Both the position numbers and the translations under genes were made by a program. A stretch of 58,796 bases of DNA, taken from contig JAFRGL010000005.1 in the NCBI GenBank assembly GCA_017433825.1, positions 1 through 58,796 on the forward strand, read 5' to 3'. Of the stretch, positions 25,211 to 40,710 are shown piece by piece. How positions within the stretch are numbered: position 1 is the stretch's first letter; each line of letters begins with the position of its first letter. The stretch comes from Eubacterium sp. (GTDB taxonomy: Bacteria > Bacillota > Clostridia > Lachnospirales > Lachnospiraceae). The notes beneath the pieces are model-generated. The model ran no database searches, had not been told where the DNA came from, and saw only the letters and a list, made by a program, of their open reading frames with translations.

Positions 25211-25215
25211 CTGTG

Positions 25216-25243
25216 CCGCCGGAGATAATCCGGCGGTTTTTTT
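25216..25243 (+). terminator. Terminator after the first zinc-ribbon gene
   Basis: CCGCCGGA and TCCGGCGG pair around a 5-nt loop and are followed by seven T. This separates the gene from the Hsp70 operon. Confidence 0.85.
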
Positions 25244-25400: not shown

Positions 25401-27149
25401 ATGCTGAATGTAGGAATAGATTTCGGAAGCACCTATACCATGGTTTCGGTTTACCGGCAGCATCTGGGCCAGCCGGAAGTGGTGGGGCTTACCGAAGGCG
25501 GAAACAAAAACATACCCACGGTACTTTCCTGCAGGCCCGACGGCAGCAGGGTGCGTATCGGCGAGTCTGCAAAGGCGGGAATGGCCGGCAACAACCGGAA
25601 ATTCCGGGCATTTAAGATGATGCTGCCCGAGGACGATCCGGAAAGACTGGCAGCCAGGGGCTATGACAGCACCTTTACGCCCGAGGAGATTACCAGGAAG
25701 TTCCTGAACGAAGTCATGGACAAGGTGCTGGACCGGGAAGACGACAAGGAGATCGGAAGCCTGGTTATCGGCGCGCCGGAGGTCTGGTATGACGCCTTTG
25801 CCACCATGGACGGACGGACAAAGCTGAGGGATATCTGCCGTGAGCTGCCCTATTTCGGCACAACCGCGCCCAAGGACGCAGTGCAGGTGGTCAGCGAACC
25901 CACGGCGGCCAGCGCGTATTTCGCCTATAAATACCTGCAGCTGAAAAACCAGCCGTTTTCCGGTCATTTCCTTCTGATTGACTACGGCGGCGGCACCCTG
26001 GACATTTCCCTTACCGAGGTCTCCCAGGGCAAAAAGCGGGAGGACGGCAACACCCTGGAAATCCGCGTGCTGGATCATTTCGGCGTGGGCGAGAACGAAC
26101 AGCGGGGCGAAGTGGGCAACGCGGGCATTATTTACATGGAAAGCCTGACGAAGGAAGTGATAAAAAGCGCCTATCCGGAGATGGAGAATATTCCTCTGGA
26201 CAATGATTTCTTCGAGTCCGTGGATGCCGTGGAAAAGGGCCTCATGAACAACGTGGACGAGATTGAGGAAATCCTGGACGAATTCGGCACCGACCCGGAA
26301 GGCCTGACCGCGGACCGCATGGACGGGGAAGAAATCTTCATGAAGATACCCTACGGCGACGGCAAGAAGATAGACCTGACCTACAGGATGATGGTGGATG
26401 TGTACAACCGGGTTATCCGGCCCGTCTTCCAGGCGAAGATGGAAGAAGCGCAGCAGACCATGGACCGGCTGGGCATCGACTGGCGGAACAAAACCTCCGA
26501 CAGGTTCAAGCTGGTGCTGGTAGGCGGCTTCGGCAACTTCTACCTGGTCAAGGCCCACATGAAGGAGGCCTTCGACATCCGGCATAATGACAAGAGAGAC
26601 CAGGACATCGGCCTGAATGAGAATACCCGGGAACTGGCGGTATCCTTAGGCTGCTCGATTCTGTCCGCGGGCGTTATCCGTATCCGGAACACCGCGCCCA
26701 TCGGCATCGGCGTGATGACCCTGATGACCAAGAACGGCAAACAGCAGTGTACCCTGTCCTACGGGCTGCGGTATCACAATGACATAGAATACGACAAGGA
26801 ATATCTCCAGACCAAGGGCAAGGGAAATGCCCTGGACTACGTATTGATAAGCTCGCTGGAATATTTCCTGGTGGATATGGGCAAGGGCCCCATGCCCCTG
26901 GTGCCCAAGCAGAAATTCCTGGATATCTTAAGGGATGCGGCGGAGAACCGGGCGCTGGTGTACTTCGGCTTTTCCATGGATGCCTCCGGTGTCATCACCC
27001 TGTATATCCATGACTATGACCATGTGGAGGAAAGGGAGGTATCCTGCACCTCTTATGAGCTGACCAGCTACAAGAGCCTGTTTGACACCCAGAGCGTGGA
27101 TCCCAGGGTCTTAAAGCTTATCAAAGAGTCGGTTAACGCGAAAAGATAA
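25401..27149 (+). CDS. Hsp70-family chaperone lacking the lid
   Basis: A 582-residue Hsp70-type ATPase. Seen are phosphate loop 1 (GIDFGSTYTMVSVY), the signature EPTAASAYFAY, phosphate loop 2 (LLIDYGGGTLDISL) and an adenosine-type loop (LVLVGGFGNFYLV). After the ATPase domain a short divergent substrate-binding beta domain can be traced (TAPIGIGVMTLMTKNG and FGFSMDASGVITLYIHD, like DnaK's FDIDADGILHVSA). The helical lid and the EEVD-like tail are absent. No DnaJ or GrpE is nearby. It is first of eleven closely spaced genes, so it probably serves a dedicated complex rather than general folding. Confidence 0.85.
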   Translation: MLNVGIDFGSTYTMVSVYRQHLGQPEVVGLTEGGNKNIPTVLSCRPDGSRVRIGESAKAGMAGNNRKFRAFKMMLPEDDPERLAARGYDSTFTPEEITRKFLNEVMDKVLDREDDKEIGSLVIGAPEVWYDAFATMDGRTKLRDICRELPYFGTTAPKDAVQVVSEPTAASAYFAYKYLQLKNQPFSGHFLLIDYGGGTLDISLTEVSQGKKREDGNTLEIRVLDHFGVGENEQRGEVGNAGIIYMESLTKEVIKSAYPEMENIPLDNDFFESVDAVEKGLMNNVDEIEEILDEFGTDPEGLTADRMDGEEIFMKIPYGDGKKIDLTYRMMVDVYNRVIRPVFQAKMEEAQQTMDRLGIDWRNKTSDRFKLVLVGGFGNFYLVKAHMKEAFDIRHNDKRDQDIGLNENTRELAVSLGCSILSAGVIRIRNTAPIGIGVMTLMTKNGKQQCTLSYGLRYHNDIEYDKEYLQTKGKGNALDYVLISSLEYFLVDMGKGPMPLVPKQKFLDILRDAAENRALVYFGFSMDASGVITLYIHDYDHVEEREVSCTSYELTSYKSLFDTQSVDPRVLKLIKESVNAKR

Positions 27150-27161
27150 AGGAGAAGATTT

Positions 27162-28529
27162 ATGAGTTTTCAGAACACGAAGGATGCGCTGGAAAATCTG
27201 AAATCGTACGATGAAGTTCCCCTGGAGAACGTGCTGGGGCTGTTCCTGGATTTCTGTGATGACTGCATGAAGGGCGGCCGGGTGGACAAGCTTCCGGTAA
27301 GCGACCCGGTGGATTTCGTCCGGAATCTTCGGAAATGCAACCGCGTCATGCTGGACATCATGAACGCCAAAAGCCTGGAGCTTTCGGACGCGGATGCTGA
27401 AGGTAGGACGGAGAAGCAGAAGGCTTCCCTGACCGAACTGGAAAACACCCTGGCCGTGGAGGAGCAGAAACTGACTGCCGCTGCGGAAAGCGTGGCGCAG
27501 CAGAGGGCTGCCCTGGACAGGAGACGGGCGGCAGCCAAAGAGAAAGCGGACAAAATCAAGGCGGCTGAGGACGAGCTGAAGGCGGAGAACGACCGGCTGA
27601 AAAGGGAATCCGAAAGCCTGGCCCTGGCCAATGTGTCCCTGCAGGAGGAGAACCTGGACCTGCAGCGGCTGATTCCCGAGCGGGAGAAGCAGAAAAATGC
27701 CATGGAGGAAAAACAGCGTGAACTGACGCTGACCAGGGACGCCCTGCTGGCGGAAATCAACGCACTGTCCGCCAATGCCATGGAACTGGACAATAAAATC
27801 AACAGGGAGCTGGAACCGGCCAGGAAGAAGGCGGAGGCAAACAACCTGACGCTCACCAACCAGGCGGCGGAGCTGACCATAAAAATCCAGGAACTGAAAG
27901 AAAAGAACGAAACCCTGCAGAACATGCAGGAGCAGAAATCCCTGATTGTCACCGACCTGGAAAAGGAACGCAACGGACTGCTTACCGATATTTCCGAAAC
28001 CAACGACAACCTGGCCCGCCTGCGTAAGGAGATAGCGGACCTGCAGGCATCCGTGAACGAGGGCGACGTATCCAGACAGGAGAAAGAGCTGGAGAAACGC
28101 AAAAACACCCTGACGGAAGCGAAGGCGGCCCTGGAAAGGCTGACTGCGGACAACGAGTCCCTGGACGGCAGCATTAAGGAAAAGGAAGCGGACATCCGCA
28201 GGGCCGAGGCAGAGACAGCTTCCTTAAGCGCCAGATGGGAAGAGCTGGAAGAGCGGGAGTCGCAGATTAAGAAAAAACTGGCCGGTGTAACCGAACGGAC
28301 GAAGGATGTAACCGCCGTGGAAGAACGGCTGGCCCGGCTTTTGAATATTTCGACAGCTCTGGAAGCGGACAGCCGCATCCTTGCGGAACGCACCGGCATG
28401 AGCGGCTTTTCCGTGGCAAATGATATCAAGAACAGCGCACAGGAGGCGGAAAACATCATGCGCCGGCTGAAGAACGATATTGACAGTTACAACAAGGAAA
28501 TGAACCTGAAACTGAACACCAACCTGTAA
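27162..28529 (+). CDS. Long coiled-coil protein of unknown function
   Basis: 455 residues. About 75 N-terminal residues look globular (PLENVLGLFLDFCDDC, NLRKCNRVMLDI). From there to about residue 430 the sequence is a near-continuous heptad coiled coil rich in Glu, Lys, Leu and Ala. No signal peptide or membrane span. It starts 12 bases after the Hsp70 gene. A scaffold or tether role is inferred; the family is not recognised. Confidence 0.7.
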   Translation: MSFQNTKDALENLKSYDEVPLENVLGLFLDFCDDCMKGGRVDKLPVSDPVDFVRNLRKCNRVMLDIMNAKSLELSDADAEGRTEKQKASLTELENTLAVEEQKLTAAAESVAQQRAALDRRRAAAKEKADKIKAAEDELKAENDRLKRESESLALANVSLQEENLDLQRLIPEREKQKNAMEEKQRELTLTRDALLAEINALSANAMELDNKINRELEPARKKAEANNLTLTNQAAELTIKIQELKEKNETLQNMQEQKSLIVTDLEKERNGLLTDISETNDNLARLRKEIADLQASVNEGDVSRQEKELEKRKNTLTEAKAALERLTADNESLDGSIKEKEADIRRAEAETASLSARWEELEERESQIKKKLAGVTERTKDVTAVEERLARLLNISTALEADSRILAERTGMSGFSVANDIKNSAQEAENIMRRLKNDIDSYNKEMNLKLNTNL

Positions 28530-28545
28530 GAGAAGAGGAAAACGC

Positions 28546-30225
28546 ATGTTTTCAGACCACAAGCCCTTGTATCTGCTGTTCCGGAACGAAGGCGAAACCT
28601 ATTTCCTGAACAGCACGCTGCAGCTGGGCTATAACGATTATGTCTGGTACAGGCTGAAGGAGGCGGGATATAAATACATTTATTTCCTGAACCTCCTGTC
28701 CCAGGACAATGCCGGCCTGATGATTCCCGACAGAAATTCCTATACCAAAAACACCTATGGCCAGGGCTTCTTCAAAAAGAAGCTGTGGGATGCGGACAAG
28801 GGCTTCCGCCCCGGCGTGGAGATAAATGCCCCGGCGGCAAACGTCACCACCTGGACGGCCGAGCGCCTGGCGGACCCGGAATGCGCGGTGGTGGCGGATG
28901 TGCGGGCCTTAAGCCTTCTTTTCCCGGCGGCCTATCCGGAGAAGCTGAACGCCTTAATCGGCACGAGGAAAGACGGTGCCGGCACTTTGGCGGTTACCTG
29001 CCCGATGACGCTTTCGGCGGACGAGCTGGCACTGTTCATCGGCAAAAACAGCATTTTTGCCAAAAGAGAAGGCGGACGCTGCCTGCTGCAGCCTCTGTAC
29101 ACCCTCATCAGCACCGGCAATGAGGAAGCGCTGCTTTTCGACGAACTGAAGAAGGGCGCCGCGGATCAGATGATTGAGCTGGGCAACATTGATTTCGACA
29201 GAATCAAAAGCCTGATGTTCCAGGTGGAAACCGCCCGGGATGAGGTCTGGGGGGAAGAGGAAAGACTGGACCGGTCCAATTACCTGTATTACTGGCTGAC
29301 GAACGATGCGGTGCGGATTAAATCCGGCGGCCTGTTCGACAAGATAACCGGTACGGTAACCACGAAGAAGCTTTTTGACAGCCTGACCGGCAGCGGCATG
29401 GCAGCCATGATGGAGCGGGTAAACCGGGTGAAGGACGAGTACCGGAAGAAATACCCGGAGAAAACCGCGAAGATACCCTTGTCCCGGATGCTTTTCGAGT
29501 TCTACGGCCCCAGGGAATCCCAGAAAAACGCCAGCCGGATTACGCTGGAGGAAGCGGCTTTGCTGAAGCTGTCCGAGGAGGCATGGCCTTCCGGCTGCGA
29601 CAGCAGTGAAAGTGCCTTCGACAGCCTGATACGGGTGACCAAGGCCGACTGGGACGAAATGCGCAGGAAGATCTTAAAGCCCAGAAACAAGCTTCTTGAG
29701 AAAAAAAGGCTGAAATGGCTGGAGGCCTGCCTCACCTACATGGACCCGGCCAGGAACAAGGGCGATTTCGACACCCTGCGCCGGACCGTGAACATGCTGA
29801 TGTACTGCGGCAACAACCTGTACACCGGCAGCGCGGACCAGTATGAGGACTACTGCAGGAAGGGCCGGATTTACCTGGACGCCTCCGGGCAGTATTTCGA
29901 CCTGACGCAGACCCTGAAGAAGCTGCAGGGCATGGCGAATGCCTCCAGCGTAGGCGTAAAGGCTCAGATCGTGAAGATCAAGACCGAGATGATGAAGCTG
30001 GAAAAGCTGCTGACCGATCTGGACGGTATCTTCGTCAGCGTATTCACCGTCTCCGACCGGATATCCGAGGATACCTTCCTGATGCTGGAAAACCTTTCCG
30101 AGGACGCGGAAGGCAACATCGATTTCGGACAGGAAGCGGAGAAGCCTGCGGTAAAGGCGCCTACCCTGGACGAACTGATGGAAGGCATGTCGGAAGAGGA
30201 CGCCTACAGCCTGCTGGAGAACTGA
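28546..30225 (+). CDS. Unrecognised 559-residue alpha/beta protein
   Basis: I do not recognise this family. The first 200 residues alternate strands and helices (PLYLLFRNEGETYFL; AECAVVADVRALSLLFP; TLAVTCPMTLSADEL in essence), a pattern like an AAA-type core without a Walker A loop. This is an impression only. The C-terminal half is helical and ends in a short acidic tail (LDELMEGMSEEDAYSLLEN). The gene sits between the coiled-coil gene and the paralogous helical pair, with a 16-bp gap upstream, so it belongs to the operon. Confidence 0.6.
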   Translation: MFSDHKPLYLLFRNEGETYFLNSTLQLGYNDYVWYRLKEAGYKYIYFLNLLSQDNAGLMIPDRNSYTKNTYGQGFFKKKLWDADKGFRPGVEINAPAANVTTWTAERLADPECAVVADVRALSLLFPAAYPEKLNALIGTRKDGAGTLAVTCPMTLSADELALFIGKNSIFAKREGGRCLLQPLYTLISTGNEEALLFDELKKGAADQMIELGNIDFDRIKSLMFQVETARDEVWGEEERLDRSNYLYYWLTNDAVRIKSGGLFDKITGTVTTKKLFDSLTGSGMAAMMERVNRVKDEYRKKYPEKTAKIPLSRMLFEFYGPRESQKNASRITLEEAALLKLSEEAWPSGCDSSESAFDSLIRVTKADWDEMRRKILKPRNKLLEKKRLKWLEACLTYMDPARNKGDFDTLRRTVNMLMYCGNNLYTGSADQYEDYCRKGRIYLDASGQYFDLTQTLKKLQGMANASSVGVKAQIVKIKTEMMKLEKLLTDLDGIFVSVFTVSDRISEDTFLMLENLSEDAEGNIDFGQEAEKPAVKAPTLDELMEGMSEEDAYSLLEN

Positions 30226-30334
30226 CGGTCATTTTAGGGAAAACAAAACGGAAGGCGGCGCGGGCCGTCCGGCCGTATTTATATAAATGCAATTAACCAT
30301 ATCCAAATACTCATATCAGGAGGAGCATGAATTT

Positions 30335-31594
30335 ATGGCTCAGAAAAAGAAAACCGGAATCGCGGGCGTAGTGGACAATGTAGCTGTAAAGCTGGGCATC
30401 AAGAAGAAAGAAGAGAAGACCCCGGCGAAAATCATTGAAGAAAACCGCGCGAAGGGCAACGAGATAGCTTCCTACCTCAAGGCCATTGATTTCTATCACG
30501 GTGCGTACAAGGGCAAAACAGAAGCGGACAGCCCGGAGAACATGCAGAAGAAGGTTGCAGCCATGGTGCGCATCATCGACAAGGCCCACACCATCAGCGA
30601 CGATATTTCCAAGATTGACGAGGTTCTGCTGTACGCGGCCAAGGCCTTGAATGCCGCCATTGCCGACGGCGATTACAACAAGGCCATCTGGGCGAAGAAT
30701 GCCCTTTCCGCCGGCGTGCTGTATCTGCGTGACAACGTCCCGGCCGACCATGAGGAACAGCATGACGAGATCCTGGATGCCAGAGGCAAATACCTGCAGA
30801 ACTACAAAGCCATCATCCAGCTGTACGAAAAAGCCGACCAGAAGAAGAAGGCTGTGGAAGATTTTGACAAGCGGATCAATGAAGTCCATACGGATTACGA
30901 CCCGAAGGTTACGAAGATCAAAGCCCTGAAGGATTCCCCGGAAGGCCGTCTGATGTACGGCAACATCAAGATCCACGAGGACGAGCCGGGCAAGCTGGGC
31001 GAGGAAGAGAAGAAATTCCTGTCATTCATCCGTGAAGCGGCCGCCCAGGCCCACACCATTTTCCGCATGGATTCCATGCGCGATGCCACCCAGCTGGAGT
31101 ATGAACAGTCCATGTACCAGGCGGAGGACGTGCGAACCACCCTGATGAACAAGCCCTATGTGTACAACAAAGAGCTTTCCGCCTACCATGCCCTGGTGCT
31201 GCAGGACCAGATTAATACCATCGCCAGGGTATACTCGGAATATGCCACCTATCTGGATAACATTCAGAGAAGCGATGCCGAACTGAGGAGTGTCATGAAC
31301 GGCGCCGATGCCCAGGACATTGCCATTCATTCCGTAAAATTTATGGATGATATCATCAACGGTGAGACCAGCGACCTGGCTGGAGCCGCAGTTGAAGGCA
31401 ACCGGATGGCCACCCGGGCCAACAAGGCCATTGCCGAAAGCAGGGAAGCTTTGAAGGCTGCGGCGGAGGAAATGCAGAAGGCGCCGCATTACGAGGAAAA
31501 TGAAGACCTTTCCGAGCTTTTCTCCGAGATGCTGAACGAAGTGACAGAAGAAGTGGAGAATTTCGAAGACAACGTCAACTACAACTTTACCTGA
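30335..31594 (+). CDS. All-helical protein, paralogue 1
   Basis: A 419-residue helical protein, starting at the ATG 11 bases after AGGAGG; the frame is open upstream without a ribosome site. Lys-rich N-terminus (MAQKKKTGIAG), then long helices. It is a clear paralogue of the next gene across the length: both share KGNEIA/MGNEIA, IADGDYNKA-WAKNAL, YLRDNVP, YKAIIQLYEK and LEYEQS--QAEDVR. The C-terminal 40 residues are acidic. No enzyme motif or membrane span. A structural subunit is likely; family unknown. Confidence 0.65.
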   Translation: MAQKKKTGIAGVVDNVAVKLGIKKKEEKTPAKIIEENRAKGNEIASYLKAIDFYHGAYKGKTEADSPENMQKKVAAMVRIIDKAHTISDDISKIDEVLLYAAKALNAAIADGDYNKAIWAKNALSAGVLYLRDNVPADHEEQHDEILDARGKYLQNYKAIIQLYEKADQKKKAVEDFDKRINEVHTDYDPKVTKIKALKDSPEGRLMYGNIKIHEDEPGKLGEEEKKFLSFIREAAAQAHTIFRMDSMRDATQLEYEQSMYQAEDVRTTLMNKPYVYNKELSAYHALVLQDQINTIARVYSEYATYLDNIQRSDAELRSVMNGADAQDIAIHSVKFMDDIINGETSDLAGAAVEGNRMATRANKAIAESREALKAAAEEMQKAPHYEENEDLSELFSEMLNEVTEEVENFEDNVNYNFT

Positions 31595-31659
31595 TTATTT
31601 ACGAAGAAATCCCGCCCGCTTGTATGCCGGCGGAGGAAAGATAACAGGCGGACATAACT

Positions 31660-32802
31660 ATGGCACAGAAAAGAAATTTCCGGATGCCGGAAGCCCTGTC
31701 CGGCCTGGCCGAAAGGCTGGGGCTGAAAAACGGGGATGAGAATTCACCGGAAGCGGTGATAGAGGCAAACCGGAAGATGGGAAATGAAATCGCCTTCTGC
31801 CTGAGGGCCATCGATTTCGACCGCTGCGCTTACAAAGGCCAGACGCCGGAGGATTCCGCGGAAAAGCTGAAGGTGAAAACCGCGGCCATGGTGAAATTCC
31901 TGGAAAGCTCCCGGACCATTACCGACAACATTTCCGGTATCAACGAGATGCTGCTGTACGCGGCCCGCGCCTTCCGGTCGGCCATAGCCGACGGGGATTA
32001 CAACAAGGCGGTCTGGGCGAAAAACGCGCTGCAGGAAGGCATCCTGTACCTGAGGGACAACGTGCCGGAGGAAAGGCAGGACTTAAGGGAGCAGATCATT
32101 GCGGCCCGGGCGGAATACCTGCAGCATTACAAGGCCATCATCCAGCTGTACGAAAAGGTGGACCACCAGAAGAGGACGGTGGACGAGCTGGACAAAAGGC
32201 TTTCCCAGATGCATGCGGAGTATGACCCCAGGAAGGAGAAAATCCGGGCTTTAAAGGATACGCCGGAAGGCATTGCCATGTACGGCAACCTGAAGCTGCA
32301 CGAATTCGAACCGGATCTTCTGAACGCGAAGGAGAAGCAGTTCCTGGAATTTATCCGTACCACTGCCCTGCAGGCTCACAATATTTACGTGGCGGATGCC
32401 AACCGGCTGGCCAACAGGCTGGAATATGAACAGTCCCTTTCCCAGGCTGAGGACGTGCGGGTGACCATCATCAAACGGCCGGATGTCTTCAATCCGGAGC
32501 TTACCGCCATCCATGCCTCCCTCCTGAAAGAGCAGGTGGCGGACGTGGCCAAGACCCTCAACGAGTACGTTTCCTACACGGAAACCTTAAGGATGCATGA
32601 CGCGGCCCTGCAGCAGCTTCTGGAAAGCGCGGAGGCCCAGGGCATCGTCGTGGACAGCCTGAAGAAGGCTTCCATGGAAAAGGAAGAGGATATCATGGCG
32701 GACGAGGCGTTTGTAACCGGCGAAAAGATGGCCGCAAAGGTGAAAGAGGCCGAGGAAAGAAACCGTCTGGCTGAAGAAGAGCTTTACAACTACAATACGT
32801 AA
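31660..32802 (+). CDS. All-helical protein, paralogue 2
   Basis: A 380-residue paralogue of the preceding gene, with conserved blocks in the same order and a shorter C-terminus lacking most of the acidic tail. By eye about half of the aligned residues agree in the best blocks. Tandem retention of two diverged copies suggests hetero-oligomer subunits. The N-terminal MAQKRNFRMPEAL keeps the basic start. Function unknown. Confidence 0.65.
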   Translation: MAQKRNFRMPEALSGLAERLGLKNGDENSPEAVIEANRKMGNEIAFCLRAIDFDRCAYKGQTPEDSAEKLKVKTAAMVKFLESSRTITDNISGINEMLLYAARAFRSAIADGDYNKAVWAKNALQEGILYLRDNVPEERQDLREQIIAARAEYLQHYKAIIQLYEKVDHQKRTVDELDKRLSQMHAEYDPRKEKIRALKDTPEGIAMYGNLKLHEFEPDLLNAKEKQFLEFIRTTALQAHNIYVADANRLANRLEYEQSLSQAEDVRVTIIKRPDVFNPELTAIHASLLKEQVADVAKTLNEYVSYTETLRMHDAALQQLLESAEAQGIVVDSLKKASMEKEEDIMADEAFVTGEKMAAKVKEAEERNRLAEEELYNYNT

Positions 32803-32850
32803 TCCATTTATACTTTACACTGTATTTCCTTAAAAGGAGAGGATAGAAAA

Positions 32851-33519
32851 ATGTCATTATTTCATCGTAAAACACCGGAAGAAAAATTCATTGCCGCGGA
32901 GATGAAAAAACTGGAAGAACGCACCAACCGCAGCATTACCCTGGCGAACTACGCCGGCGTTCTGGAAGCCGCGAAGGCTTCCTACGAGAAGGTGATTTCC
33001 CTGGAAAGGCTGGCAGCTTTGAAGCGCAGGAAAGCCCGGGTGGGCGACGACGTGCAGAAACAGCGCATTCACGACGCCTGTGTCGGCCTTCTGGCGGTGC
33101 AGGAAGCGGAATTCGAATTAAGCTCCATCCAGAGCGCCCGTGATTTCAATGCGGCCCAGAAGGACGTGGAGAAGCTTTTACGGAAGATGTTCCGCATGAG
33201 CGGCGGCAACCTTTCCATCACTTCAAAGGAATTCAAGGCCCAGCAGAACGTGGAATTCGAAAACACCAGCGAGCCGGTTACCTTCTCTGACCGCGCCGAA
33301 CTGGTGGACGAGCGTTTTGTTGAGAATATTATCTCCGGCCTTACCTTCCAGGAAGCCCTGGACAAGACCGTTCCCGGCAATGCCGGATACAACGCGGGCA
33401 CGAACTACTTTAACAACGGCGGAAACGGCGGCTTCGGCGGCATTGATTTCTCCGGCGGGGACGAAGTGGATTTTGAAAAGGACGTGGAATCATTAAAGGA
33501 AGACGCCGATACAGTCTGA
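32851..33519 (+). CDS. Small helical protein with basic N-terminus and acidic C-terminus (ESCRT-III-like?)
   Basis: 222 residues. It begins MSLFHRKTPEEKF, continues with a helical hairpin containing a basic stretch (LAALKRRKARVG), more helices (AQKDVEKLLRKMF), a Gly/Asn-rich linker around 185-205, and an acidic end (DEVDFEKDVESLKED). This size and charge layout is what ESCRT-III/Snf7 proteins show, and the next gene encodes a Vps4-like ATPase with an MIT-like domain. The resemblance is weak at residue level and could be chance in a helical protein. No annotated family recognised. Confidence 0.5.
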   Translation: MSLFHRKTPEEKFIAAEMKKLEERTNRSITLANYAGVLEAAKASYEKVISLERLAALKRRKARVGDDVQKQRIHDACVGLLAVQEAEFELSSIQSARDFNAAQKDVEKLLRKMFRMSGGNLSITSKEFKAQQNVEFENTSEPVTFSDRAELVDERFVENIISGLTFQEALDKTVPGNAGYNAGTNYFNNGGNGGFGGIDFSGGDEVDFEKDVESLKEDADTV

Positions 33520-33536
33520 ACTGACGGAGGAACAAG

Positions 33537-34838
33537 ATGAACATTTCCAATATTAACCGACTGAATAACGAATACCGGGCCTTGCGGAACCAGGCCGAGG
33601 CCGTTTACGTGGAAAACGGCATGGTGCATTCCAATGAAGAAGGCCTGTGCTACCAGAAGGCAGCCAATATCGCCGGCCAGCTGGCCAGCATGAATATCGG
33701 AGCCGAATCCAATCACTGGGTGGAAGAGCAACAGAAATGCCAGCAGCAGATGCGGCTTATCTGGAATGCCCTGCATCCCGGCAAACCGCTGAAGGCGGCC
33801 GGCAGCGGCAGCGCTTCCGCGTCCGATGATACGGAAGAAACCGCCGGCGAAGAGGGCAAAGGCACCTCCGAATCCTCCGGAAAGCCGAAGACCGCGAAGA
33901 ATACCGCGGGCAAGACCAGCCCCGACGGCATCAAGCAGGAAATGGTGGATTCCTGGTTCAAGGACGACCCGGGCTACGGCTTTGAGGCAGTCGTGGGCAT
34001 GGAAGACGTAATCCAGACCCTGAAAAGCTGCGTGCGTGACGACAAGATGCGCGCCTTGGTGGAATTCTTAGGCCTGCCCACCGTCCAGTCCTTCTTCTTC
34101 TACGGACCGCCCGGATGCGGCAAAACCTTCGTTATCGAGGCCTTTGTTCACGAGCTGATGCAGCAGGGCTACAAATACATGTCCCTGGCCAGCGCGGACA
34201 TCCACAGCAAGTTCTCCGGCGAGGCCGACAAGATTCTGAAAAGGGTGTTCAAGGAAGCGGTGGACAACGCTCCCTGCATCCTGTTCATGGATGAAATCGA
34301 CGGCGTGGCCCAGTCCAGGGAACTGCCGAACCTTTCCGACTTCAATATGCAGCTGACCACCACCTTCCTTACCAGCTTCGGCGAGCTGGTGAAGGCGGAC
34401 AGAGAGCATAAATCCGTGATTTTCATCGCGGCCACCAACTATCCTTCCAACGTGGATACCGCCATGCTGGACAGAATGGAACTGATCCCCATCCCCATGC
34501 CCGACGACAGTGTCAGGGAGCAGGTGCTCCGCAAGGGTCTGGAGAAGATGATCGACGTGGACGATACCATCAGCTGGCCGGAAATCTCCGCCCTGACGGA
34601 AGGCTGCAGCCAGCGTGACCTGAAGAGACTGATCCAGAAGCTTCTGATGCTGGTGTTCCAGCGGGTAAGCGACTGCGTCGGCCAGGATGAAGGCGCGGCG
34701 GAGAAAGGCGTGGACCTTCTGAAGAGAAAGGATTTCCGCCTTACCAGGGAAATGGTGGACGAGGTCTTCGGCGCCTACAAGCCGAAACCCAACGCGGATA
34801 TTGAACGCTCACTGAATGAATTTGAGGCGAAGACGTAA
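33537..34838 (+). CDS. AAA ATPase, Vps4/meiotic-clade-like, with MIT-like N-terminus
   Basis: 433 residues. Residues 8-80 form three helices with an MIT-like pattern (LCYQKAANIAGQLA, then KCQQQMRLIWNAL). A Ser/Glu/Lys-rich linker spans 87-140. The AAA domain has Walker A GPPGCGKT (190-197), the pore-loop region following SADIHSKFSGEADK, Walker B ILFMDEID (248-255), sensor Asn301 in AATNYP and an Arg-finger region near LDRME. A C-terminal helix (LTREMVDEVFGAYKP) resembles the family's C-terminal segment. Such ATPases pull on protein polymers. It overlaps the next AAA gene by one base. Confidence 0.75.
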   Translation: MNISNINRLNNEYRALRNQAEAVYVENGMVHSNEEGLCYQKAANIAGQLASMNIGAESNHWVEEQQKCQQQMRLIWNALHPGKPLKAAGSGSASASDDTEETAGEEGKGTSESSGKPKTAKNTAGKTSPDGIKQEMVDSWFKDDPGYGFEAVVGMEDVIQTLKSCVRDDKMRALVEFLGLPTVQSFFFYGPPGCGKTFVIEAFVHELMQQGYKYMSLASADIHSKFSGEADKILKRVFKEAVDNAPCILFMDEIDGVAQSRELPNLSDFNMQLTTTFLTSFGELVKADREHKSVIFIAATNYPSNVDTAMLDRMELIPIPMPDDSVREQVLRKGLEKMIDVDDTISWPEISALTEGCSQRDLKRLIQKLLMLVFQRVSDCVGQDEGAAEKGVDLLKRKDFRLTREMVDEVFGAYKPKPNADIERSLNEFEAKT

Positions 34839-35899
34839 TGACTCCTGAAGAATGGGCAGTAAAAGTCCAGGATTTGTATGACATGATGGGAGAAGAAGGC
34901 GCGAAGCTGGAGGACCTGCCGGATTCCTTTGTCTGGAAGAACCTCCTGACAAACATGCTCTCTGCATTCCATTATGAACATCTGCAGATACCGAAATACA
35001 AGGGTATCCTGCTTTCCGGCCCGTCCGGGAACGGAAAACGCACCCTGATGAGGGCCTATATCCAGTCTTTGTGCAAAGCCGAGCAGTGCTTCGGGGATGC
35101 TTCCTTTGTGCGCCTGCGGGCGGAGGATTTCACGGAAGAGAAATTTTCCTCCGACGAAGATATGGGCAGTTTTATAGATGTCCTGTATCAGATAGGTGAA
35201 AACAACGGGCAGATCGGCATTATCGTATTTGACCAGATAGACACCTATCCCCGGCTTGACGTATTCTGCAACCTGATAGCGGATTACTGCGACGATGAGG
35301 CGTTTTCTTCCATACACGTCATCTGCATCTGCGAGGACGAGGACTGCATCAACAGCGAACTGTCCGCGAAGCTTCTGCACTGCCGCTGCACAAATCCGAC
35401 GGCAAAGGAGCGGGAGAAGTACCTGAATGCAAACCTGACCTGGGACGTGCCCGACTGGGAGACTTATGAAGGCCTGATAAAGACAGTTACACTTTCGGTG
35501 GAAGGCAGGAGCAATGCGAAGCTGGCGGAGCAGACCGAAGGATTCTCCTTCGGCGAGCTGGCCGACCTGGTGCAGTACATGAAGATGGAAGCGGCAGGAA
35601 AAACCTTCGGCAGCGCCAGTGCCTTAAACATAAAGATTTCCGAAGACAAGGCAGACGAATTCATCAACCTGGCACACAGAAAAGCGAAAGCTTCCGGCGG
35701 CGGTACGGTGGTTTACCAGGCCGGCGCGGCGTTTGCGGTACCGCAGGCGGCCGGCGGCATGCCCGTATCCGCGGAAGATGCACGGAAGAACCGTGCGAGG
35801 GAGCTGACCAGCAAGGGAGACGACGAGCGTACCGTGGACGAAAACCTGGAGCTCATCGACCTGGTTCCCACGCTTGAGGAAGCGAAAGCGGCGGGTTGA
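34838..35899 (+). CDS. AAA-like protein with degenerate Walker motifs
   Basis: 353 residues, start codon overlapping the previous stop (TAATG), so coupled to the active AAA gene. The P-loop reads GPSGNGKRT (61-69), with Arg in place of the Ser/Thr after the Lys. Walker B reads IIVFDQID with Gln133 where the catalytic Glu should be. It may bind nucleotide poorly and probably does not hydrolyse it. The C-terminal 80 residues hold an Ala/Gly-rich linker and an acidic helix. Most likely a regulatory or structural partner in a mixed AAA assembly. Confidence 0.65.
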   Translation: MTPEEWAVKVQDLYDMMGEEGAKLEDLPDSFVWKNLLTNMLSAFHYEHLQIPKYKGILLSGPSGNGKRTLMRAYIQSLCKAEQCFGDASFVRLRAEDFTEEKFSSDEDMGSFIDVLYQIGENNGQIGIIVFDQIDTYPRLDVFCNLIADYCDDEAFSSIHVICICEDEDCINSELSAKLLHCRCTNPTAKEREKYLNANLTWDVPDWETYEGLIKTVTLSVEGRSNAKLAEQTEGFSFGELADLVQYMKMEAAGKTFGSASALNIKISEDKADEFINLAHRKAKASGGGTVVYQAGAAFAVPQAAGGMPVSAEDARKNRARELTSKGDDERTVDENLELIDLVPTLEEAKAAG

Positions 35900-35915
35900 T
35901 TAAGGAGGACATGTT

Positions 35916-38009
35916 TTGAAGAAAGCAAAAACACAGACTGCGGCATCCGCAAAGGCCAAAGGCCAGAAGTATTTCGAAGACGGTGCCGTAAACATTTTAG
36001 ATAAAGAGACGAGGGACGGCCTGCAGATCCTGAAAGGCAAGGTGCTCTGCAACTTCGGTTTCATTCATTATCCGAAGGCAGCGGTTGCCGACAGGGGAGG
36101 AATTGTGCTGGCTTCTTCCGCCTGCGACTGCTACGAATCCAATGCGGAGGCCAATGTATGCTCCCACGTATACGGCCTTTTAAACGCGGCGGGCTATACC
36201 GGCACGATTGCCGTCCGCAAGGACCCGGCGGTTTATCTGAACGATGAAGACGAGGAGAAGGGCGGAGCGGATTTCAAGCTGGAAATCACCGAAGATACGA
36301 CGGACGAAAACGGCCTTCGGAAGGTATCCGGCAAGGCGGTCTGCAATTTCAACTTTATTCACCGCCCGGTGATTACCATTGAAGGCGGCGTGGTGAAGGA
36401 CTATACCTGCGACTGCTACATGGCGGCGGATTCGGAAGAACCCTGCCCCCACTGCAAGGCGCTGACCGCCAAAGCCCTGGGCCTGAAGACGGTGAAAAAG
36501 ACCCGGCCCGTCAAACCTTCGGCATCTGCGATGCCTTCTGCCGGGCAGGCAGAAGACCTTCCTTCTTTTGAGAGCATGGATTTTTCGGAAGAAGGCGGAC
36601 AGACAATTCCTTCCGGGGATGACAAACGGAAAATCACCGATGCGTTAAATGACCTGGCAGACGACCTGGCAGCCATCAATACGGACGACGCAGCCGGAAG
36701 CATCGCTTCGCAGATGACAAAGGCGGCCGTTGCGTTTATGGACGGCATCCTGGGAGATGACGCGAAGACCATGACGGAAGAAGGCTTCGAAGAAGAAGAA
36801 CCTGAGGAAGAGGAACCGGAAGAGCCGGTGGATGAGTACTACAATCCGGACAGGGAACCCGGCACCATGACCCTGGTGTTCGGCGCGACGGATGAAGGAG
36901 AGCCCGTACTGTGGCAGCCCAACGACACCAGCCGCCTGTTCCACACCAATACCGGCATCATCGGCACCATGGGCACCGGCAAAACCCAGTTTACCAAGTC
37001 CATGATTACCCAGCTGTACCGCGAGCAGGGCAATAACTTCTCCGGACAGTCCTTAGGCATCCTTATCTTCGACTATAAGGGTGATTACAATGAAAGCAAG
37101 GCGGATTTCGTGGAAGCCACCAATGCAAAGGTGCACAAGCTGTACCGGCTGCCCTTCAATCCGTTTTCCTTAAAAGGCTTCATGAAGAAGCCCCAGCTGC
37201 CGCTGCATGCCGCCAGCACCTTTACGGATATTATCCAGAAGATTTACAAGCTGGGACCGAAGCAGAGCGCCATCCTGACGCACTGTATCGCTGCGGCCTA
37301 CCGCCAAAGAGGCATTATTGCCGGCGACCCTGCCACCTGGGACAAAACACCGCCCACTTTCGAGGACGTTTACGAAATTTACAGCGAAGATGAAACCATC
37401 GCGAAAAACGACGTGCTTTTCGCAGCCATGGACAAACTGCATTCCTTTGAGATTTTCGAAGGCGACCCGGCCAAGACGGAATCCCTGTACGAAATGCTTA
37501 AAGGTGTGGTGGTCATCGACCTTTCCGGCTACGATTCCGCCATCCAGAACCTGGTGGTGGCCTTCATGCTGGAGCTGTTCTATTCCCAGATGCAGAATGC
37601 GGGTTCCAGCCTGATGAGCGGCAAATACCGCCAGCTGCGCAAGTTCATCCTGGTGGACGAGGCGGACAACTTCATGTCCCAGGGCTTCCCGGCCATCAAG
37701 AAGATCCTGAAGGAAGGCAGGGAATTCGGCGTGGGCGTTATCCTGTCCACCCAGTTCCTGAAGCATTTCGTTTCAAAGGAAGAGGATTATTCCAAATATA
37801 TCCTGACCTGGGTCGTGCACAATGTGGCCGACCTGAAGCGCCGCGATGTGGAATTCGTGTTTAATACGGAATCCTCCGGAGATGAAACCGAAAAACTGTT
37901 CCACGATATCAAAGAGCTGGAAAGCCATACCAGTATTGTAAAAATCGGCAATGAAGATGTGGTGAAGATGAACGATCTTCCCTTCTTCCGCCTGATAGAG
38001 GAAGGTTAA
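35916..38009 (+). CDS. Double SWIM-finger HerA/FtsK-type ATPase
   Basis: 697 residues. Two SWIM-type zinc fingers: Cys70-x-Cys72...Cys82-x-His84, and Cys165-x-Cys167...Cys177-x-His179, each behind a similar CNFxFIH strand, so an internal duplication. An acidic linker follows (residues 285-305 almost all Glu/Pro). The ATPase has Walker A GTMGTGKT (350-357), the HerA-type IFDYKGDYN strand, Walker B ILVDEADNF (578-586) and a late LSTQF sensor segment. HerA-class motors move DNA or protein. The start is TTG, seven bases after AAGGAGG; the nearer ATG opens only ATG-TTT-TGA. Confidence 0.75.
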   Translation: MKKAKTQTAASAKAKGQKYFEDGAVNILDKETRDGLQILKGKVLCNFGFIHYPKAAVADRGGIVLASSACDCYESNAEANVCSHVYGLLNAAGYTGTIAVRKDPAVYLNDEDEEKGGADFKLEITEDTTDENGLRKVSGKAVCNFNFIHRPVITIEGGVVKDYTCDCYMAADSEEPCPHCKALTAKALGLKTVKKTRPVKPSASAMPSAGQAEDLPSFESMDFSEEGGQTIPSGDDKRKITDALNDLADDLAAINTDDAAGSIASQMTKAAVAFMDGILGDDAKTMTEEGFEEEEPEEEEPEEPVDEYYNPDREPGTMTLVFGATDEGEPVLWQPNDTSRLFHTNTGIIGTMGTGKTQFTKSMITQLYREQGNNFSGQSLGILIFDYKGDYNESKADFVEATNAKVHKLYRLPFNPFSLKGFMKKPQLPLHAASTFTDIIQKIYKLGPKQSAILTHCIAAAYRQRGIIAGDPATWDKTPPTFEDVYEIYSEDETIAKNDVLFAAMDKLHSFEIFEGDPAKTESLYEMLKGVVVIDLSGYDSAIQNLVVAFMLELFYSQMQNAGSSLMSGKYRQLRKFILVDEADNFMSQGFPAIKKILKEGREFGVGVILSTQFLKHFVSKEEDYSKYILTWVVHNVADLKRRDVEFVFNTESSGDETEKLFHDIKELESHTSIVKIGNEDVVKMNDLPFFRLIEEG

Positions 38010-38012
38010 TCT

Positions 38013-38570
38013 ATGTCGACCGAAATCAAATGCCTGGTCTGCGGAAATATCCTTTCCGAAGACGATGCCGTCTGCCCGGTATGTAAATTCCCGCATATCA
38101 GCATGCTGTACGGCAGCGAGGAAGAAAAAGCAAAGATCCTGGCCATGGCCGAGGAATACAGGAAGGAACACTGGATTCCGCCTGCCTTTTCCGTCTATCT
38201 GATGGTTTATACCAATGCGCCGGTACCCGGGGAAACGGTCTACGTGCCGGAGGCAATGGAAACCTGGACGGGAATCCGGCAGGAGAAGGAGGAATTCATC
38301 CTTTTAGGTGAAACGGACAAGCTGACAGACGGTATTATCAGCTGGTATCCGGAAACCTTTGCCCGCCAGTCGGAAGACATTTCCGTGAAAATCCGCATGG
38401 AGGCAGCGGAAGGCGGAAAGACACTGTATTATTCCGTACGGATGACCAGGCCGTCACTGGATGATTTCTGGAGGATCGGCCTTCTGAAAAAAGACAGGGA
38501 ACTGAAGCTTGCTCTGGGTTCGCCCATAAGCTACACCCTTTCCAATCCGATACCGTACGACAAAGGATAA
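38013..38570 (+). CDS. Zinc-ribbon protein with C-terminal beta domain (homologue of 24659 gene)
   Basis: 185 residues. Zinc ribbon C7-x2-C10 and C21-x2-C24, a short helix, then a strand-rich domain (FSVYLMVYTNAPVPG onward). The end WRIGLLKKDRELKLALGS aligns with the C-terminus of the zinc-ribbon protein before the Hsp70 gene. It starts three bases after the ATPase stop and ends three bases before the next gene. Family unknown. Confidence 0.6.
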   Translation: MSTEIKCLVCGNILSEDDAVCPVCKFPHISMLYGSEEEKAKILAMAEEYRKEHWIPPAFSVYLMVYTNAPVPGETVYVPEAMETWTGIRQEKEEFILLGETDKLTDGIISWYPETFARQSEDISVKIRMEAAEGGKTLYYSVRMTRPSLDDFWRIGLLKKDRELKLALGSPISYTLSNPIPYDKG

Positions 38571-38573
38571 GGT

Positions 38574-39257
38574 ATGTGGAAATGTATTATCTGCGGAAGG
38601 CAGCATGACGAAGCAGCGATGTCCTGCAAATGCGGGCTGAAGAGAAGCAGGGACGTGATATCCCTGCGAACACTGGCGCCTGCGTCCTCTGCGGACAAGG
38701 ACTATATCCGTCTGCGCCGCACGGAATATGTGCTGAACATGACGCAGATCTGGCAGAACCAGCAGGCGGAAGAACTGAAAGAGCTCCGGGCCCGGGAACA
38801 GCAGCAGGCAGAAGCGAAACGCCAGGCTGAGGAAAAGCGTAAAGCAGAAGAACAGCTCCAGGCGGAAGAGAAACGGAAAGCCGAAGAAAAACGCCTGGCC
38901 GAAGAGAAAAAGCAGGCTGAGGCAAAAAAGCAGGCTGAGGCGAAACGCCAGGCGGAGCTGAAAAAGCAGGCCGAAGAGAAGCGCCAGGCTGAGGAAAAAC
39001 GAAAAGCAGAAGAACAGCAGCAGGCTGCGCTGAAGCAGCAGGAAGAACAGCAGGCGGCAGCGGGACAGCAGAGCAGTTCAGGCTGCGGCAGCTGTGTATT
39101 TTATTTTCTTGGCTTTATCTTCCTGTGCCTCGGCATTACCGGCATTGCGAGTAAAGATGCGAATGTTCCCGTCTGGGGAATCATTCTACTGTTTGCCCTC
39201 TTCATTTTATTCATTGCCCTGCCGGGCGCTTTAAGCAAGACGAACAAAAAACAGTAA
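38574..39257 (+). CDS. Zinc-finger/coiled-coil/two-span membrane protein 1
   Basis: 227 residues. A small zinc finger of RanBP2-like shape (WKCIIC...CKCG), a long Lys/Glu/Gln/Ala coiled coil made of AEEKRKAEE-type units (about residues 62-165), then two membrane spans (VFYFLGFIFLCLGI and WGIILLFALFILFIAL). The finger and coil are therefore probably cytoplasmic and tethered to the membrane at the C-terminus. It is paralogous to the next gene through the finger and the SLRTLAP/SSRTLAP segment. Function unknown. Confidence 0.65.
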   Translation: MWKCIICGRQHDEAAMSCKCGLKRSRDVISLRTLAPASSADKDYIRLRRTEYVLNMTQIWQNQQAEELKELRAREQQQAEAKRQAEEKRKAEEQLQAEEKRKAEEKRLAEEKKQAEAKKQAEAKRQAELKKQAEEKRQAEEKRKAEEQQQAALKQQEEQQAAAGQQSSSGCGSCVFYFLGFIFLCLGITGIASKDANVPVWGIILLFALFILFIALPGALSKTNKKQ

Positions 39258-39272
39258 TAATGGTGATTTCTT

Positions 39273-40391
39273 ATGTGGAAATGCAGTATCTGCGGCACCG
39301 TAAATGCCGAGGACAACAGAATATGCAGATGCGGGGCGGAACGCAGCCGGAACTATTTTTCCAGCAGGACCCTGGCACCGCTGTCAGAGACGGATAAGAA
39401 GGATACCCTGCAAATCCGGGCGGCCTATCTTCAGGGCCGCATAAAGGCGCAGGATGACGCCTACAGAAAGTCCCAGCAGGAGCTGGCTGAAAGTATCGCC
39501 GCCCGCCGGAAGCAGGAGGAAGAAGCGGAACGCCGCCGGCAGCAGGAAGCCTGGGCAAAACAGGAGGCTGAAAGGCTCGCCGAACAAAGGAGACAGCAGG
39601 AAGCGGCCCGCCAGGCGGAACTGAGGAGACAGCAGGAAGCAGCCCGTCAGGCGGAGATGAGGAGGCAGCAGGAAGCGGCCCGCCAGGCGGAGATGAGGAG
39701 GCAGCAGGAAACGGCAAGGCAGCAGCTGCCCGCTGATTTCTGGAGAACGCGGCTTCCCGCCGTGCTGACCAATGACAGCGCCACTTACTTTGCCCCTGCA
39801 ATCCCGGCCAATTTGATGTCCAATGCCATGAAACACATCGCCAAAGGCCAGGCCGGACCGGAAGATGTGCTGGTACTGGTGGCATTGAAATCCACCGGCA
39901 GTTTTCCCTACGGACAGGCCTCGGACGGCAGGGAGGGCTTCCTCATTACGAAAGACCTCCGGTTCATTTTTTCCGGCAATACCACGGCGATGAATGAATC
40001 TGCCGCAGATCTTGTGAACATGCAGATGCGCAGCGCCCATACCGTGGAAACAACCACCAGAACCGGCGTAAGAAACATTGTTTTTCCCAATTATATCGAT
40101 ATAAGGAAACTGCTTCCCGCGATTGCGGACGCGCAGAGGCAGCTTCTCGGCAGACAGCCCATGACCTTCACACTTCTTACGGGAAGTGAGGAAGCGGCAA
40201 TTGAGCAGACCGCCAGGAAAAGCGCACAATCCGCAAAAACAGGGTTCCTGGTGGGGATAATTATCTTTATTATTATTGCGGTCCTGACGGCGCCTGTGCT
40301 GCCCGGTATCACCATATTCTGTGTGATCATGGCGGTTATGTTTATTGCGCTCAGGTCAAAAATATCCAAAGACAACCCTGCCGGGCCGTAG
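39273..40391 (+). CDS. Zinc-finger/coiled-coil/two-span membrane protein 2
   Basis: 372 residues, paralogue of the preceding gene with an added domain. N-terminal finger WKCSICGTVNAEDNRICRCG, coiled coil of 12-residue units (RRQQEAARQAEM) around 106-150, then a globular domain of about 165 residues (FWRTRLPAVLTNDSATYF; GREGFLITKDLRFIFSG), which may be a PH-like or ligand-sensing fold. Two membrane spans near the C-terminus (FLVGIIIFIIIAVLTAPVL and ITIFCVIMAVMFIAL). Last gene of the cluster. Confidence 0.65.
   Translation: MWKCSICGTVNAEDNRICRCGAERSRNYFSSRTLAPLSETDKKDTLQIRAAYLQGRIKAQDDAYRKSQQELAESIAARRKQEEEAERRRQQEAWAKQEAERLAEQRRQQEAARQAELRRQQEAARQAEMRRQQEAARQAEMRRQQETARQQLPADFWRTRLPAVLTNDSATYFAPAIPANLMSNAMKHIAKGQAGPEDVLVLVALKSTGSFPYGQASDGREGFLITKDLRFIFSGNTTAMNESAADLVNMQMRSAHTVETTTRTGVRNIVFPNYIDIRKLLPAIADAQRQLLGRQPMTFTLLTGSEEAAIEQTARKSAQSAKTGFLVGIIIFIIIAVLTAPVLPGITIFCVIMAVMFIALRSKISKDNPAGP
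39588..39716 (+). repeat. 36-bp coding tandem repeat
   Basis: Units at 39588-39623, 39624-39659 and 39660-39695 plus a partial fourth encode 12-residue coiled-coil steps. Units differ by a few bases. The array is a likely site of copy-number variation. Confidence 0.8.
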
Positions 40392-40478: not shown

Positions 40479-40499
40479 TCCTGCAATTAAATATTCAGT

Positions 40500-40672
40500 T
40501 GATGGATAGAGGCGCGGCCGACATCAGTAACCGGAGGATAAATGGTATCGCAAAACCGTATGCTTCCGGCGAAAGGGAGAGCCGCCGAAGGAAGGAGAAG
40601 GCGTTCTTCTTTCCTGGGCCCGGGGTTAATACCCTAGGGACTGTCGCAGCTTATGCGGAGAGCTATGTATTG
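40500..40672 (+). ncRNA. Lysine riboswitch (L box)
   Basis: The conserved L-box blocks occur in order: AGAGGCGCGG, the AGTAACC bulge, a GAAAGGGAGAGCCGCCGAAGG segment, GGGGTTAATACCC, ACTGTCGC and finally GGAGAGCTATG. Lysine binding folds the aptamer and favours the terminator that follows. It stands 150 bp before dapA and fits the four lysine genes downstream. The gene-free 40392-40820 region is explained by this element, its promoter and its terminator. Confidence 0.93.
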
Positions 40673-40710
40673 ATTGTGAAAGAGATAAGTTGATTATTTC
40701 GATTGTTCAT

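Follow-up and report, generated by a model that had tools for sequence, protein, structure and literature searches.

The window analysed here is the whole 58,796-nucleotide stretch of DNA from Eubacterium sp. (Lachnospiraceae; assembly GCA_017433825.1, contig JAFRGL010000005.1, positions 1 to 58,796 of the forward strand). At positions 25401-40391 it holds a compact operon of twelve genes, all on the + strand, which brings together an Hsp70, two AAA proteins, a HerA-type motor with SWIM fingers and several zinc-ribbon proteins. A first-pass annotation had spoken of eleven genes, but its own gene list and the open frames give twelve; for the gene content it named, frames, strand and content agree with ours. 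The genes, designated g1 to g12, are listed below. Nine of them are termed core, G000 is the window's own genome, G001, G002 and G004 are the other carriers in the genus, and L047-L052 are six distant loci.

g1, 25401..27149, + strand: Hsp70, core (PF00012, E 4e-11; PDB Hsp70 chains, E 5e-15; orthologues)
g2, 27162..28529, + strand: coiled-coil protein, core (domain scans, alignment)
g3, 28546..30225, + strand: protein of 559 amino acids (aa) without recognised domain, core (orthologues 23-53% identical)
g4, 30335..31594, + strand: helical-looking protein, core (paralogue alignment)
g5, 31660..32802, + strand: paralogue of g4; of the loci read, G000 and G001 alone have it
g6, 32851..33519, + strand: protein of 222 aa with a basic, then an acidic half, core (charge count)
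g7, 33537..34838, + strand: active classic-AAA ATPase with an N-terminal domain of its own, core (PF00004, E 1.4e-26)
g8, 34838..35899, + strand: pseudo-AAA protein, core (hhalign to g7; Walker B without catalytic Glu)
g9, 35916..38009, + strand: SWIM-SWIM-HerA motor of 697 aa, core (TTG start, AAGGAGG upstream)
g10, 38013..38570, + strand: zinc-ribbon protein, core (BLASTP and alignment; in the six distant loci it follows g2 and precedes g3)
g11, 38574..39257, + strand: zinc-ribbon-tagged protein with a charged stretch and C-terminal membrane spans (A18 module, E 4e-20; hydrophobic stretches at 168 and 194)
g12, 39273..40391, + strand: zinc-ribbon-tagged protein with C-terminal membrane spans (A18 module, E 7e-20; hydrophobic stretches at 317 and 336)

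Genes g11 and g12 are themselves rows of the A18 model that scores them, and the membrane spans, in these and in the other ribbon proteins, are predictions from a simple hydropathy window. From g1 to g12 the intergenic spacings are 12, 16, 109, 65, 48, 17, -1, 16, 3, 3 and 15 bp. The tight, one-strand arrangement described earlier was thus recovered: a single gap of 109 bp precedes g4, and all other spacings lie between -1 and 65 bp. This gap holds for a g4 start at 30335 (MAQ...), which was set there because the paralogues share that start.

We then asked whether the genes travel together, as the first-pass annotation had proposed to check by gene neighbourhood. Two exact peptide patterns of g7, run against 84,980 species genomes, returned 32 loci, a lower bound. 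Nine were orthologous, three from members of the genus and six from elsewhere (L047-L052, with hosts in Oscillospiraceae, unclassified Clostridiales and, for L050, Hominifimenecus microfluidus). All six distant loci share one order, g1-g2-g10-g3-g4-g6-g7-g8-g9, that is Hsp70, coiled coil, zinc ribbon, three families of no recognised kind, AAA, pseudo-AAA and SWIM motor; the nine core genes do travel together. In L047, L048 and L049 all nine are backed by BLASTP (E 1e-3 against the window genes), while g10 in L050 and g2 in L051 and L052 were assigned by position and alignment only, and g9 of L052 matches in its SWIM part alone. Between G000 and G001, the ratio of nonsynonymous to synonymous divergence (dN/dS) ranged from 0.10 (g6) to 0.44 (g12) over the eleven genes with usable dS, g11 being left out for too high a dS. 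The recurrence of nine families in one order at six other loci, together with these ratios, therefore indicates real, constrained genes.

Three core families resisted assignment. The best matches of g3 were weak (Pfam, E 0.0075; PDB, E 0.089), PDB searches with g3, g4 and g6 gave nothing useful, Pfam, PHROG and PDB offered no noteworthy match to g6, and a PHROG scan of ten proteins yielded two weak matches only. Kinship between g4 and g6 was considered and dropped after a negative profile comparison. The net charge of g6 is +4 over residues 1-111 and -12 over residues 112-222, in agreement with its earlier description as basic-to-acidic. A C-terminal tail of the N-x-N-[ST] kind ends 7 of 11 rows of the g4 family (alignment A12, window 30335-32802 plus relatives), and such a tail might perhaps be a recognition tag for the AAA pair.

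The chaperone and the AAA proteins are easier to place. Gene g1 encodes an Hsp70 nucleotide-binding domain plus a part resembling the substrate domain, and all ten rows keep the DYGGGTLD and EPxAAS motifs. Its length and order suggest that it is too short to have a lid. In g7, the Walker motifs GPPGCGKT and FMDE are intact in all nine rows. Its earlier label of Vps4-like stands as far as the classic AAA class; the Vps4 subgroup is neither confirmed nor excluded, with NCBIfam scores of 102.9 bits for proteasome-activating nucleotidase (PAN), 102.0 for CDC48 and 100.9 for the archaeal Vps4-type CdvC. A closer relationship to CDC48 than to Vps4 was rejected, the CDC48 scores in PDB being sums over two ring domains (76 + 86 bits). 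Given these near-equal scores and two-ring sums, we therefore leave g7 in the CDC48/PAN/Vps4 group at large. The relatives retrieved with g7 were mostly 25-36% identical matches inside larger proteins, FtsH-like by judgement. Matches of g7 to PADLOC IetA (E 5e-22) and NCBIfam IteA_antiphage (E 1e-19) were given no weight, and the IteA_antiphage score falls below the scores of its general AAA families. The neighbouring g8 aligns with g7 (hhalign probability 97.6%, E 4e-12). It lacks the Walker B catalytic Glu in 9 of 9 rows (FDQ in seven, LED in one, FDA in one) and has Arg in place of the Walker A Lys in three. The two look like an active/inactive AAA pair and might form one ring.

Taken by themselves, these three genes could suggest a proteostasis or stress machine, in which complexes are dissolved or extracted by Hsp70 together with the AAA pair and the HerA domain serves as a repurposed regulator or threading motor. 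The kept Hsp70 signatures and intact g7 Walker motifs would suit such a machine, as would the place of g7 in the classic AAA group with the CDC48 and PAN unfoldases and its pseudo-AAA partner. We nevertheless consider it quite unlikely: the motor of this cluster occurs in two types, HerA and FtsK (see below), both of which belong to the translocases of double-stranded DNA, and it is difficult to see why a machine that works on protein alone would exchange its motor for FtsK. Membrane remodelling by an endosomal sorting complex required for transport (ESCRT), with g7 as Vps4 and g6 as ESCRT-III, could appeal to the classic AAA domain of g7 with its extra N-terminal domain, to a CdvC score close to that of CDC48, and to the small size and basic and acidic halves of g6. 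Yet neither Snf7 nor PspA matched g6 (searched at E<=1 for the window member and at E<=0.01 for three relatives), PDB gave no match for it, and g7 had no MIT domain among the best 25 of its 29 matches, which makes this a highly improbable explanation.

The first-pass annotation had called g9 a HerA-type ATPase, which was borne out and can be refined to the DptH type. Two CxC..CxH SWIM-type fingers are present in 9 of 9 rows and, with an acidic linker, make up the N-terminal part. HerA Walker A and B motifs follow in 8 of 9 rows, L052 having FtsK instead. Against PDB, the g9 profile found DptH (7es4, E 7e-140), its matches to FtsK being due to the L052 row that it includes, and the PADLOC DndH model matches g9 at E 4e-182. 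The HerA part is 48-64% identical to C-terminal domains of DptH/DndH proteins, three of which lie in annotated dpt operons. In the motor tree, g9 and DptH groups are mixed, while g9 as a single clade is not rejected (p-AU 0.485, approximately unbiased test). By these comparisons the g9 motor is either the sister of the DptH motor or one of its near relatives. Two stronger claims were discarded: repeated transfer of HerA between DndH and g9, suggested by a first tree, in view of the same p-AU; and the equation of g9 with DptH, as the PADLOC label would have it, since g9 lacks the N-terminal domains of DptH and no partner of the DndF/DndG kind turned up.

Motors of this kind could also betray a domesticated piece of a mobile element, that is a DNA transfer or packaging apparatus joined by chaperones. 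HerA/FtsK motors drive both processes according to the excerpted text of PMC10853773. Furthermore, g9 matches the conjugation coupling-protein family TrwB_AAD_bind (E 2.7e-9), as other HerA-like motors may too. A related stand-alone HerA protein is found on a mobilizable Vibrio plasmid (L103:4207-7143), where a DptH-like protein of 979 aa adjoins mobI and a TraG-like gene. On the other hand, no relaxase, integrase or capsid family is among the Pfam matches of the twelve genes, the PHROG matches of the ten proteins scanned amount to the two weak ones above, and no viral or plasmid copies of the genes tested were found, which renders such an origin very unlikely.

The locus L052, from a metagenome-assembled Oscillospiraceae genome, retains the SWIM part of g9, while its motor half is FtsK (Pfam FtsK_SpoIIIE, E 6e-66; FtsK alpha, E 1e-25). 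The two genes compared are:

L052:12253-14226: SWIM-FtsK fusion
L093:3090-5780: ftsK of the same host

The closest relative of the motor half is the 896-aa FtsK of the same genome, 92% identical over 410 residues; the FtsK proteins of four other carriers are 56-63% identical to it, and G623 gave just a 34% match. Over fusion residues 258-594 (337 residues) the protein does not differ from the host FtsK, yet the DNA does at 25 of 1011 bases, all of them outside one identical run of 447 bases shared by both copies in the genome. Across FtsK-core codons 258-596, the dN/dS count gave 3 nonsynonymous steps, which fall on residue 595 or within codons that changed twice. Over its last 50 residues the fusion departs from the host FtsK, and the frame ends before the gamma domain, for which Pfam shows no match. 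A simple assembly copy is an unlikely source, given the 25 base differences within the stretch of identical protein and the larger number in the tail. By its DNA the motor would be a diverged paralogue of the host FtsK; it looks like a recent capture of the host's own chromosome pump, later held in step, as it seems, by selection or gene conversion. Because HerA was exchanged for FtsK behind a constant SWIM part, the exchangeable part is the DNA pump. In this genome, an intergenic repeat of 168 bp with 98% identity also lies downstream of the captured ftsK (L052:14637-14804) and of the housekeeping one (L093:2777-2944), with further partial and inverted copies nearby.

A zinc ribbon of 43 residues is common to the N-termini of g11 and g12 (alignment A18). 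The A18 profile gave 31 matches at E <=1e-9 in eight of ten carriers, 2 to 6 per genome. Its 12 constituent rows are counted among these matches, and two of the four in G625 may be pieces of one masked gene. The module is absent from three cluster-free members of the genus, and among 291 genomes of the class it was detected in the window's own only (none of 290 others, with at most 25 first-look candidates scored per genome). In these profile searches, the module co-occurs with the core cluster.

The remainder of the ribbon-tagged proteins varies and comprises membrane spans, RCC1 repeats or Sel1 repeats. Three fusions (two RCC1, one Sel1) were confirmed by Pfam, and the rest were assigned by an ad hoc RCC1 motif count and hydropathy. 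Some ribbon genes form tandem arrays adjoining the core, with six in L137. In three related genomes the core is 80-96% identical to the L051 copies and the adjacent ribbon-RCC1 gene 54%; provided that the RCC1 genes are orthologous, which is not proven, this gene appears to diverge faster than the core. By eye, G004 (L149, G004:C216) shows two further arrangements: a g10-like ribbon at the C-terminus of membrane proteins, and a DnaK-like Hsp70 that ends in zinc ribbons and adjoins ribbon-bearing membrane proteins. Finally, another contig of the window genome has a third ribbon gene, with a TIR gene 9 bp behind it and a second TIR gene a further 20 bp on:

L144:218-2451 = G000:C13:8217-10450, - strand: apparent ZnR-TIR-TIR operon, away from the main cluster

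Its ribbon (ZnR) gene encodes a zinc-ribbon/coiled-coil protein of 176 aa. Each TIR protein has two matched TIR stretches, and PADLOC ties the pair weakly to Thoeris ThsB and other TIR proteins.

At least 10 genomes are known to carry the cluster. With a g3 probe, it was found in four of the seven genomes of the genus, the three without it being 77, 82 and 97% complete. G001 has all twelve genes at the same chromosomal place as the window. In G002 and G004 the cluster lies at a different place with the order of g8 and g9 swapped, and G002 has a single g4/g5 gene; both copies are partly cut off by contig ends, and that of G004 is spread over two contigs. Beyond the genus it is rare: 1 of 391 class genomes (g7 profile, at most 4 first-look candidates scored per genome), and 1 of 299 phylum genomes (g3 search). 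Searches with g6 found it in 1 of 99 genomes related to G626 and in 3 of 128 related to G622. In all of these counts the genome at the centre of the search is included.

This distribution bears on a further explanation, in which the SWIM motor would act on chromosomal DNA, moving it at the membrane under the control of the chaperone and AAA proteins, as a host machine for segregation or envelope-linked DNA handling kept in few lineages. The captured FtsK motor is indeed the host's own, with its protein kept identical, the mobile collections tested yielded no copy, and g11 and g12 carry predicted membrane spans. But presence is very patchy, even within the genus, where the cluster-free genomes are 77-97% complete; ordinary ftsK is kept in five of six carriers checked (the sixth, G623, being the one with just a 34% match); and the motor is otherwise of the DptH type. 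We therefore regard such a role as unlikely.

The surroundings of the window cluster contain the following features:

25215..25237, + strand: terminator-like hairpin, left boundary (9-bp stem and T run; pattern match only)
40499..40673, + strand: lysine riboswitch of the next operon (dapA), right boundary (RF00168, 82.9 bits)
24659..25210, + strand: possible second zinc-ribbon copy of the g10 family, upstream of the terminator (BLASTP and alignment A14; membership uncertain)

Both boundaries had been noted in the first-pass annotation and were found again, the left one as a match to a pattern with 32 sites against 24.0 (sd 5.1) in shuffles; dapA follows the riboswitch on the right. The frame at 24659-25210 matches the g10-like proteins of L047, L048, L049, L051 and L052 (BLASTP, E 2.4e-4 to 1.3e-7), and g10 of L052 matches this copy alone. 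It has no match at E 1e-5 within the G001 stretch L038, and it may be a member of the cluster. At the dapA site of the cluster-free G003 and G005 (L078, L079), another P-loop ATPase gene, HerA-like by eye, lies upstream. In G002 and G004 (L039:11663-18829), the cluster adjoins sbcCD, named by eye, and a gene for a PglX/type IIG-like methylase, named by PADLOC; this is the sole restriction-like neighbour seen among the flanks read.

How does the cluster relate to known systems? DndFGH/DptFGH shares the C-terminal HerA/FtsK motor, but DndH is a protein of about 1700 aa with nuclease, methylase-like and target-recognition domains (open frames of 1742 aa in L043 and 1767 aa in L042), whereas g9 has 697 aa and SWIM fingers instead. 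Neither g3 as DndF or DndG nor g4 as DndG was acceptable (hhalign probability about 0.1%, with two-row DndF/DndG profiles). HerA/FtsK capture systems, including the BRC systems, have motors from different sources in a constant architecture, among them cellular FtsK with an alpha domain, as described in the excerpted parts of PMC10853773 (Rakesh, Aravind, Krishnan 2024) and PMC12839542. Our cluster has no Orc/CDC6, D5 or PglZ core but the new Hsp70/AAA core, and no recognised nuclease; the words 'SWIM' and 'hsp70' occur 0 times in both texts.

Extended loci of Type III-A CoCoNuT systems, as excerpted from PMC11090510, likewise contain an Hsp70-like part, coiled coils and zinc ribbons, with CDC48-like AAA or FtsK/HerA ATPases nearby. 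They differ in McrB GTPase, McrC/DUF2357 and VWA, which are not among the matches listed for our cluster, and 'swim' appears 0 times in that text. Similarly, the HSP70-bearing GAP1-N2 GTPase systems and the MoxR-vWA ternary systems (excerpt of PMC7159879) share chaperone-type ATPases, zinc ribbons and membrane proteins, but the cluster has no GTPase, vWA or tubulin match and g7 touches bpMoxR at just E 0.031. No winged helix scored above the cut-off, one g4 relative touching WHD_MCM8 at E 0.012; such domains evolve fast. Because the nearest classes have partners or nucleases that were not found here, we did not file the cluster under any of them. The gene set had previously been called uncharacterised; its core does co-occur, and no description was recognised in open-access full-text literature, subscription papers and preprints being outside this scope. 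The nine-gene core appears to be an uncharacterised unit.

The composition and conservation of the cluster, the type of its motor, the swap and the ribbon co-occurrence are documented here at the level of sequence. Our leading interpretation of them, held tentatively and at somewhat less than even chances, is a multi-protein, ATP-driven machine for DNA capture, most likely a counter-invader system. The exchange of HerA for FtsK, the conserved core order and the ribbon co-occurrence count as support for this interpretation. A counter-invader role is suggested by the kinship with DptH, a DNA-restriction component, by the patchiness, by the TIR operon and by the repeated HerA/FtsK capture that is a theme of counter-invader systems in the excerpts of PMC10853773 (see also PMC12839542). 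We count in its favour, too, that the cluster is present in four of seven genomes of the genus and one of 391 of the class, that it occupies two chromosomal places within the genus, and that the ribbon-RCC1 gene seems to diverge fast. As for the three roles proposed earlier, DNA-directed defence fits best (DptH-type motor, FtsK swap, ribbon/TIR operon), a stress-response role keeps a place owing to Hsp70 and the AAA pair, and remodelling of the ESCRT kind finds no sequence support beyond the broad AAA class.

Several observations weigh against the counter-invader interpretation. The Pfam matches of all twelve genes include neither a nuclease nor a known effector domain, and the NCBIfam/PADLOC matches listed for ten of them include no nuclease, although a divergent fold in g3 is conceivable. 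The flanks read are mostly not defence genes, G002 and G004 excepted. No copy was found in viral contigs (searched with g7, g6 and g1), on plasmids (g1 and g6) or in phage records (g7 at E 1e-30); g9 does match 14 plasmid records, via its HerA part and in no case over 80% of its length. The carriers G002 and G004 give just weak A18 matches (E above 1e-4), the TIR link occurs in one genome, with the third ribbon gene of G001 having neighbours without Pfam match, and the FtsK swap comes from one metagenome-assembled genome.

In a counter-invader machine of this composition, the SWIM part would dock the motor on other subunits or on DNA. The motor would engage foreign DNA that is entering or segregating, and then pump or hold it. 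The zinc-ribbon proteins might serve as anchors in the membrane, as sensors or as effectors, and reach the core via a shared docking surface, and Hsp70 and the AAA/pseudo-AAA pair might assemble, gate, dismantle and recycle the complex. Since no nuclease was recognised, such a machine would not cut the DNA but would arrest it, or else pass a signal to a further effector, for which the linked TIR pair is an example. The fuller version, a nuclease-free immune machine of Clostridia with an Hsp70/AAA-gated SWIM-HerA/FtsK pump that host FtsK can replace and with dispersed, fast-evolving ribbon receptors and effectors of membrane, RCC1, Sel1 and TIR-linked kinds, is possible but doubtful.

The cluster unites a motor of the DNA-restriction kind with an Hsp70, a classic AAA unfoldase, SWIM fingers and three unrecognised families in one conserved unit, whose motor present PADLOC models label DndH. 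The zinc-ribbon tag provides a handle for finding its receptors or effectors. The capture of FtsK amounts to a natural experiment, in which the interchangeable part is the DNA pump, and it offers a test of why such motors get captured.

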